Positions 1-842 of a stretch of 14,345 nt of DNA are shown one piece after another. The stretch is taken from assembly GCA_001412365.1 (NCBI GenBank), contig LKUE01000119.1, forward strand, positions 1-14,345, given 5' to 3'. The DNA comes from Desulfuromonas sp. SDB (GTDB lineage: Bacteria > SDB-A). The position numbers were made by a program, and so were the translations under genes. How positions within the stretch are numbered: the stretch's first letter is position 1; every line of letters begins with the position of its first letter. The notes under the pieces are model-generated. The model saw nothing but the letters and a program-made list of their open reading frames with translations, did no database searches and had not been told where the DNA came from.

Positions 1-573
1 CTTTTCACCTTTCCCTCACGGTACTTGTTCACTATCGGTCACAGACGAGTATTTAGCCTTAGGAGATGGTCCTCCCAGATTCAAACAGGATTTCTCGTGT
101 CCTGTCCTACTTGGGAACTTAAACGGAAAGACAACCACTTTTAATTTACAGGGCTGTCACCTTCTATGGCAGAACTTTCCAGAACGCTTCAACTAAGCAA
201 GCTGTTTTATGACTTTCCGGACCAGTGTGGCCTGATCCATGTTTAAGTCCCACGACCCCGATTATGCAACGCGCCACCGCTTTAACACATAACCGGTTTA
301 GGCATGTTTCCCGTTCGCTCGCCGCTACTTAGGAAATCGTTATTACTTTCTTTTCCTCAGGTTACTGAGATGTTTCAGTTCTCCTGGTTAGCTCTTCTAA
401 AACTATGTGTTCATTTCAGAAGTATCTGGGCATAACCCCAGATAGGTTTTCCCATTCGGAAATCCCCGGATCATAGTTTGCTTGACAACTACCCGGGGCT
501 TATCGCAGCCAGCCACGTCCTTCATCGCCTGTCTGTGCCTAGGCATCCACCAATTGCCCTTAATAACTTGACA
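1..573 (-). rRNA. 23S ribosomal RNA, 5' part (3' end outside window)
   Basis: Read on the minus strand, this matches the conserved 5' third of bacterial 23S rRNA. Recognisable blocks in order are GGTGGATGCCTAGGCA, GGCGATGAAGGACGTG, TTTCCGAATGGG, GAACTGAAACATCT, AGTAGCGGCGAGCGAACGGG, GGTGACAGCCCTGTA, GGACCATCTCCTAAGGC and the GTACCGTGAGGGAAAGG region at the window's left edge. The mature 5' end is placed near 573 because TGTCAAGTTATTAAGGGC aligns with the usual 23S start; it may be off by a few bases. The segment between the AGTAGCGGCGAGCG block and the CTGGAAAG block is longer than in E. coli, but resembles the longer form of Bacillus and many other phyla. The gene continues past base 1, so domains II-VI and any 5S gene are not visible. 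There is no 16S upstream; uvrA lies there on the other strand. Confidence 0.97.
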
Positions 574-606
574 CACAAAACTGAACAATCAGCTTCTATA
601 TAGAAT

Positions 607-618
607 TATCAAAGAACA
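607..618 (-). promoter_or_regulatory. boxA-like antitermination element in 23S leader
   Basis: On the minus strand this reads TGTTCTTTGATA, close to the boxA core (TGYTCTTTRA) found in rRNA leaders and in 16S-23S spacers, where Nus factors load on RNA polymerase. It lies about 35 bases before the 23S start. Between it and the rRNA are a 12-bp perfect palindrome (594-605) and a small CTGA/TCAG inverted repeat (581-592), which could form part of a processing structure. The call rests on motif similarity and position only. Confidence 0.55.
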
Positions 619-670
619 AAATATTCCTGTTAGCTAATTGCAATAACTTAATTACAATTTAGCAAGAAAA

Positions 671-699
671 ATGTTATTGAAAGAAAGGATGAATGTCAA
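671..699 (-). promoter_or_regulatory. Putative promoter of the 23S rRNA unit
   Basis: On the minus strand a perfect -35 hexamer TTGACA (694-699) is followed after 17 bp by TAACAT (671-676), four of six matches to TATAAT. Transcription would start near 664, giving a leader of about 90 bases that contains the boxA-like element. Its position, with no 16S upstream, implies that 23S is transcribed from its own start. The spacing and perfect -35 make it the best promoter candidate in this gap. Confidence 0.6.
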
Positions 700-707
700 G
701 AGAAAAT

Positions 708-736
708 TTAATATTTTTTAAAATAATTTTTATAAT
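708..736 (+). promoter_or_regulatory. Possible uvrA promoter in the AT-rich divergent gap
   Basis: A perfect TATAAT (731-736) has TTAATA (708-713) 17 bp upstream. The region is so AT-rich that chance matches are likely. A second candidate, TTCAAA (starting about 776) with an ATATAT/TATATA box 17-18 bp downstream, is closer to the gene. No LexA-type SOS box was recognised. The rest of 700-842 holds no ORF or RNA gene that I can support. Confidence 0.25.
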
Positions 737-842
737 TTTAATTTTTCTTTTTTCATATAAATATTACAATAGTTTTTCAAAACAATTAAGCTGATCAGAT
801 ATATATTGATTTTTATTTAAACTAAATAATCAGGAAACATAG

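Follow-up and report, generated by a model that had tools for sequence, protein, structure and literature searches.

A 23S rRNA gene divergent from uvrA, and apparently apart from 16S, in four genomes of a small phylum

The 23S-uvrA locus

The stretch of DNA analysed here, called the window, is the entire 14,345-bp contig G000:C119 of a genome (G000) assembled into 3.14 Mb and 433 contigs, with completeness rated 98.7%. A cmscan search with the bacterial LSU rRNA model RF02541 placed the start of a 23S rRNA gene at the contig edge (minus strand, window 573..1, covering 1-521 of the 2925 model positions, 432.9 bits, E 2.1e-139), and uvrA departs in the opposite direction 269 bp from this 5' end. 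The locus was compared with those of three relatives, G001-G003, which belong to the same family as G000 and to another genus; the phylum sample therefore covers four examined genomes from one family and two genera, all of them fragmented assemblies. The features of the locus are:

1..573, minus strand: 5' portion of the 23S rRNA gene, truncated at the contig edge after about 521 model positions (Rfam RF02541, cmscan)
564..602, minus strand: predicted 23S processing stem, 5' arm TATATAGAAGCTG ... TGTGTGTCAAGTTA, pairing with the 23S-5S spacer of G001
605..618, minus strand: boxA-like motif TGTTCTTTGATAAT, aligned and conserved in four genomes
633..663, minus strand: leader hairpin upstream of boxA (boxB position), differing in sequence but not in position among the four 23S leaders
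671..676, minus strand: -10 element TAACAT (TAATAT or TATTAT in relatives)
694..699, minus strand: -35 element TTGACA, invariant in four genomes, with a 17-bp spacer to the -10
843..3620, plus strand: uvrA, divergent neighbour, 925 aa (Pfam UvrA_inter and UvrA_DNA-bind)

The 23S fragment was the sole Rfam match in the window; no 16S gene was found anywhere on the 14.3-kb contig, no tRNA in the 14.3-kb window and no terminator between window positions 400 and 1000. The first-pass annotation had described a 23S gene 269 bp from uvrA on the opposite strand, without an upstream 16S or tRNA, and the cmscan and tRNA scans of the window and the position of uvrA agree with that description. The three relatives have the same arrangement, in which uvrA, and not 16S, is found at the usual spacer distance before 23S, so that the 23S start lies divergently beside uvrA in four of the four examined phylum genomes. 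In G001 (contig C51) uvrA occupies 1431-4196 on the minus strand and 23S starts at about 4437 on the plus strand, while the corresponding contigs of G002 (C70) and G003 (C72) start within 23S and run on into uvrA. Among 20 uvrA loci from other phyla, none had an rRNA gene, 23S included, nearby.

Further along the window, 4879-6630 (minus strand) encodes an M6-type peptidase with a weak match to a type IX secretion family (CHU_C), and 6743-7996 (plus strand) a protein with a Por secretion tail; these two sequences suggest that type IX secretion may operate in the lineage. The 842-aa protein encoded at 8117-10645 (minus strand) had no Pfam match at E 0.001.

Promoter, leader and 3' end of the 23S unit

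A perfect -35 (TTGACA), a 17-bp spacer and a TAACAT -10 had been annotated about 90 bases before the rRNA. We measured 97 bp for this promoter, and its position is conserved in all four genomes. When the 23S-uvrA spacer of the window (20% GC) was shuffled, a perfect TTGACA with a fitting -10 arose in only 12 of 2000 sequences, so that the window promoter is unlikely to be a chance occurrence even when taken alone. The four 23S leaders all carry TTGACA, 17 bp and then TAACAT, TAATAT, TATTAT or TAATAT, ending 90-97 bp before the start of the 23S model, and a comparable site was met in 6-28 of 2000 shuffles per leader. Pairwise identity between the leaders was 41-60% upstream of the -35 and 68-93% from the -35 onward.

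Downstream of the promoter follow, in this order, a hairpin, the boxA-like motif and a conserved stretch. On the transcript strand, the hairpins have predicted energies of -11.0 to -11.2 kcal/mol (z from -2.2 to -3.2 over the four leaders); their position is the same in the two genera and their sequence differs. A counterpart was sought in the 16S leaders of the four genomes, and a plausible one was seen only in G000. The boxA-like motif reported by the first-pass annotation is present and matches the E. coli boxA consensus at 11 of 14 positions. In the window sequence alone it is weak, 179 of 2000 shuffles scoring equally, but its conservation in the four genomes supports it as a candidate element. 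Linked 16S-23S spacers, too, usually carry a boxA ahead of 23S, and the motif therefore does not discriminate a separate 23S gene from a linked one. Of the evidence originally put forward for a separate 23S, the lack of 16S and the divergent position of uvrA are what discriminates, whereas the boxA-like leader is consistent with separate transcription and does not prove it.

The arm at 564..602 extends into the start of the Rfam 23S model. We paired the 23S leaders with the 23S-5S spacer of G001, which provided the 3' arm (trailer) in all pairings, G000's own 3' arm being absent from its assembly. The window leader gave -40.1 kcal/mol, against -17.9 +/- 3.5 for shuffles (minimum -32.0), and the leaders of G001-G003 formed two long helices with -42.5 to -43.8 kcal/mol, where shuffles averaged about -15. 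Overall, the leader-trailer duplexes range from -40 to -44 kcal/mol, compared with about -14 to -18 in shuffles. As modelled with the trailer from G001, these predicted helices are the processing stem expected of a pre-23S RNA.

The 3' end of the unit was seen in the relatives. Contig C97 of G001 opens with the final 186 nt of 23S; a 45-nt spacer, 5S and protein genes come next. Contigs C15 of G002 and C56 of G003 begin within 5S, after which comes a similar small outer-membrane-protein-like gene. The 5S gene was thus found directly downstream of 23S in G001; the G000 contig ends before that point, and no 5S was found in the G000 assembly. Since the 3' end of 23S is joined to 5S in G001, and since its trailer pairs with the leaders, we consider the unit to consist of promoter, leader, 23S and 5S. 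Near a gene end, G002 also shows a sub-threshold match to the Phe leader family (L148 820-941, 37.1 bits for a cut-off of 55), which is probably a terminator hairpin or a chance match.

The 16S locus and alternative readings of the contigs

In all four genomes the 16S gene gave a single match, on a contig other than that of 23S. The 16S gene of G000 lies after a dihydroorotase-like gene and a gene for a small protein of 184 aa, both transcribed away from it and identified from their sequence, without a family search; the gene layout upstream of 16S is the same, by sequence, in G001-G003. The 16S contigs of G001 and G003 measure 39.6 kb and 40.1 kb, and the contig of G003 with 5S at its start measures 107.6 kb; on neither kind of contig did the searches made detect the other rRNA gene. 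Each of the four 16S genes has its own promoter, TTGACA-17-TATATT, and a boxA-like motif. The 16S leader of G000 (L143 1335-1508) is about 70 nt longer than those of the relatives, with 165 nt from promoter to 16S compared to 91-101 nt. Patterns for the 16S 3' end, the predicted 16S trailer and the 23S 3' region revealed no 16S 3' end or flank in the four bins, the trailer pattern matching only the 16S leader itself. Locating the 16S gene and its downstream flank, as the first-pass annotation had proposed, thus succeeded for the gene, which occupies a separate and conserved locus, but not for its 3' flank, absent from all four bins.

This missing flank bears on the alternative that survives best, namely that an ordinary linked 16S-23S-5S operon is also present and that the 23S beside uvrA is an extra solo copy. 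A short piece made of the 16S 3' end, a spacer and the 23S 5' end, lying between two assembly breaks, could drop out of the bins, while a 16S gene with unique genes after it would normally end up in a bin; as its 3' flank should have been findable in the latter case, a second, linked 23S keeps some probability. Against it, each genome yielded a single 5' flank for 23S, a single 5' flank for 16S and no more than one clear 3' flank for 5S. Moreover, the contigs reach about 520 nt (G000) and about 620 nt (G001) into 23S rather than ending at its start. The breaks themselves fall at runs shared between species: exactly 87 nt are common to G002 and G003 at the starts of their 23S contigs, likewise at the starts of their 5S contigs, and exactly 87 nt are common to G001, G002 and G003 at the ends of their 16S contigs. 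Such sharing would reflect branching of a k=87 assembly graph between related species, and is not what a within-genome repeat needs, so that the breaks in the three relatives are explained without intragenomic repeats. As a control, the same tool was applied to 20 genomes from other phyla, and in 16 of them 16S lay upstream of 23S at a distance of up to 1.5 kb, which indicates that the method detects linked operons when they are present. We infer that the genomes lack a further, linked 23S copy; its presence is unlikely, and the reading of the uvrA-side gene as an extra solo copy is improbable.

The two remaining alternatives have next to no likelihood. The contigs end within rRNA genes, where misjoins arise, and an assembly chimera could have joined a 23S end to a uvrA contig at the rRNA repeat. 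The same junction is nevertheless found in two genera, with a conserved promoter and with spacers that are strongly diverged but still alignable. The UvrA of the window is 65-67% identical to those adjoining 23S in G001-G003, while a collection of named genomes offered UvrA relatives of only about 53% identity. Given the divergence of protein and spacer among the four genomes, the junction must be old, and an assembly accident common to them is excluded. In addition, the 23S, 16S and UvrA of G000 each have their closest match in these same relatives, which indicates a contig of one lineage. A comparison of the junction in related genomes had been suggested as a check at the outset; with the same arrangement in three of three relatives, we rejected a chimeric join. 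Reading the 23S fragment as a remnant or a pseudogene, as its mere 521 5' positions might suggest, is just as implausible, for the truncation coincides with the contig end, both the promoter and the processing arm show conservation, and a DNA query of the G000 assembly, used because an Rfam LSU search missed even the known fragment, gave no other 23S 5' end.

A probable separate 23S-5S unit and its known counterparts

We conclude that positions 1-842 of the window very probably represent the upstream part of a 23S-5S rRNA transcription unit that is independent of 16S. The proposal of an unlinked 23S gene with its own promoter is supported by the junction with uvrA in four of four genomes, by the separate 16S locus and by the promoter; gene order, both loci, promoter and leader are conserved in the four genomes, and the 23S-5S linkage and the stem pairing are seen in a relative. 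RNA polymerase would start at the conserved promoter, some 97 bp ahead of 23S, and the short leader, with its hairpin and boxA-like element, would probably load a Nus antitermination complex. Transcription would then continue through 23S and 5S, in G000 as well. The leader and the 23S-5S spacer would pair into a long stem, which RNase III probably cuts to release pre-23S, and 16S would be transcribed at a distant locus, with a promoter and a boxA-like leader of its own. On balance, we favour a split of 16S from 23S-5S that is ancestral and fixed throughout the phylum, in apparently non-reduced genomes, each half having its own promoter and a Nus-type leader and the 23S processing stem being retained. 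If the split is ancestral, equal output of both subunits must be achieved via two separate promoters.

Unlinked rRNA genes are not new in themselves, as the first-pass annotation had remarked, and Helicobacter, Borrelia and Wolbachia provide examples (PMC8708148, PMC7761764). According to the papers that cite it (PMC8997704, PMC7761764), the survey of Brewer et al. 2020 found unlinked 16S and 23S genes to be widespread in bacteria and archaea. The present case is ordinary in kind and, with that survey known through citing papers, a new record for the lineage; what it adds is that both loci and the promoter are conserved in four examined genomes of 2-3 Mb from a small, poorly sampled phylum. 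Surveys based on long 16S-23S amplicons would miss organisms of this phylum, which also offers one more lineage in which to study how the output of 16S and 23S is kept equal without co-transcription.

In H. pylori, as in the lineage of the window, 16S is encoded apart from a 23S-5S unit, and RNase III matures both (PMC8708148). For H. pylori, an antisense RNA on the 23S-5S leader has been described (PMC8708148), and the two cases differ in lineage and in neighbouring genes. Borrelia burgdorferi likewise has a 16S gene isolated from 23S-5S (PMC8708148), in another lineage and another gene neighbourhood. Wolbachia resembles the window in having 23S-5S as one transcription unit with 16S elsewhere (PMC7761764), but it is an obligate symbiont, whereas the assembly studied here, with 3.1 Mb (2.0-2.2 Mb in the relatives), does not look like that of a reduced symbiont. 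Published work on split rRNA genes stresses symbionts with reduced genomes (PMC7761764); in contrast to these, the genomes of the window's phylum appear not to be reduced.
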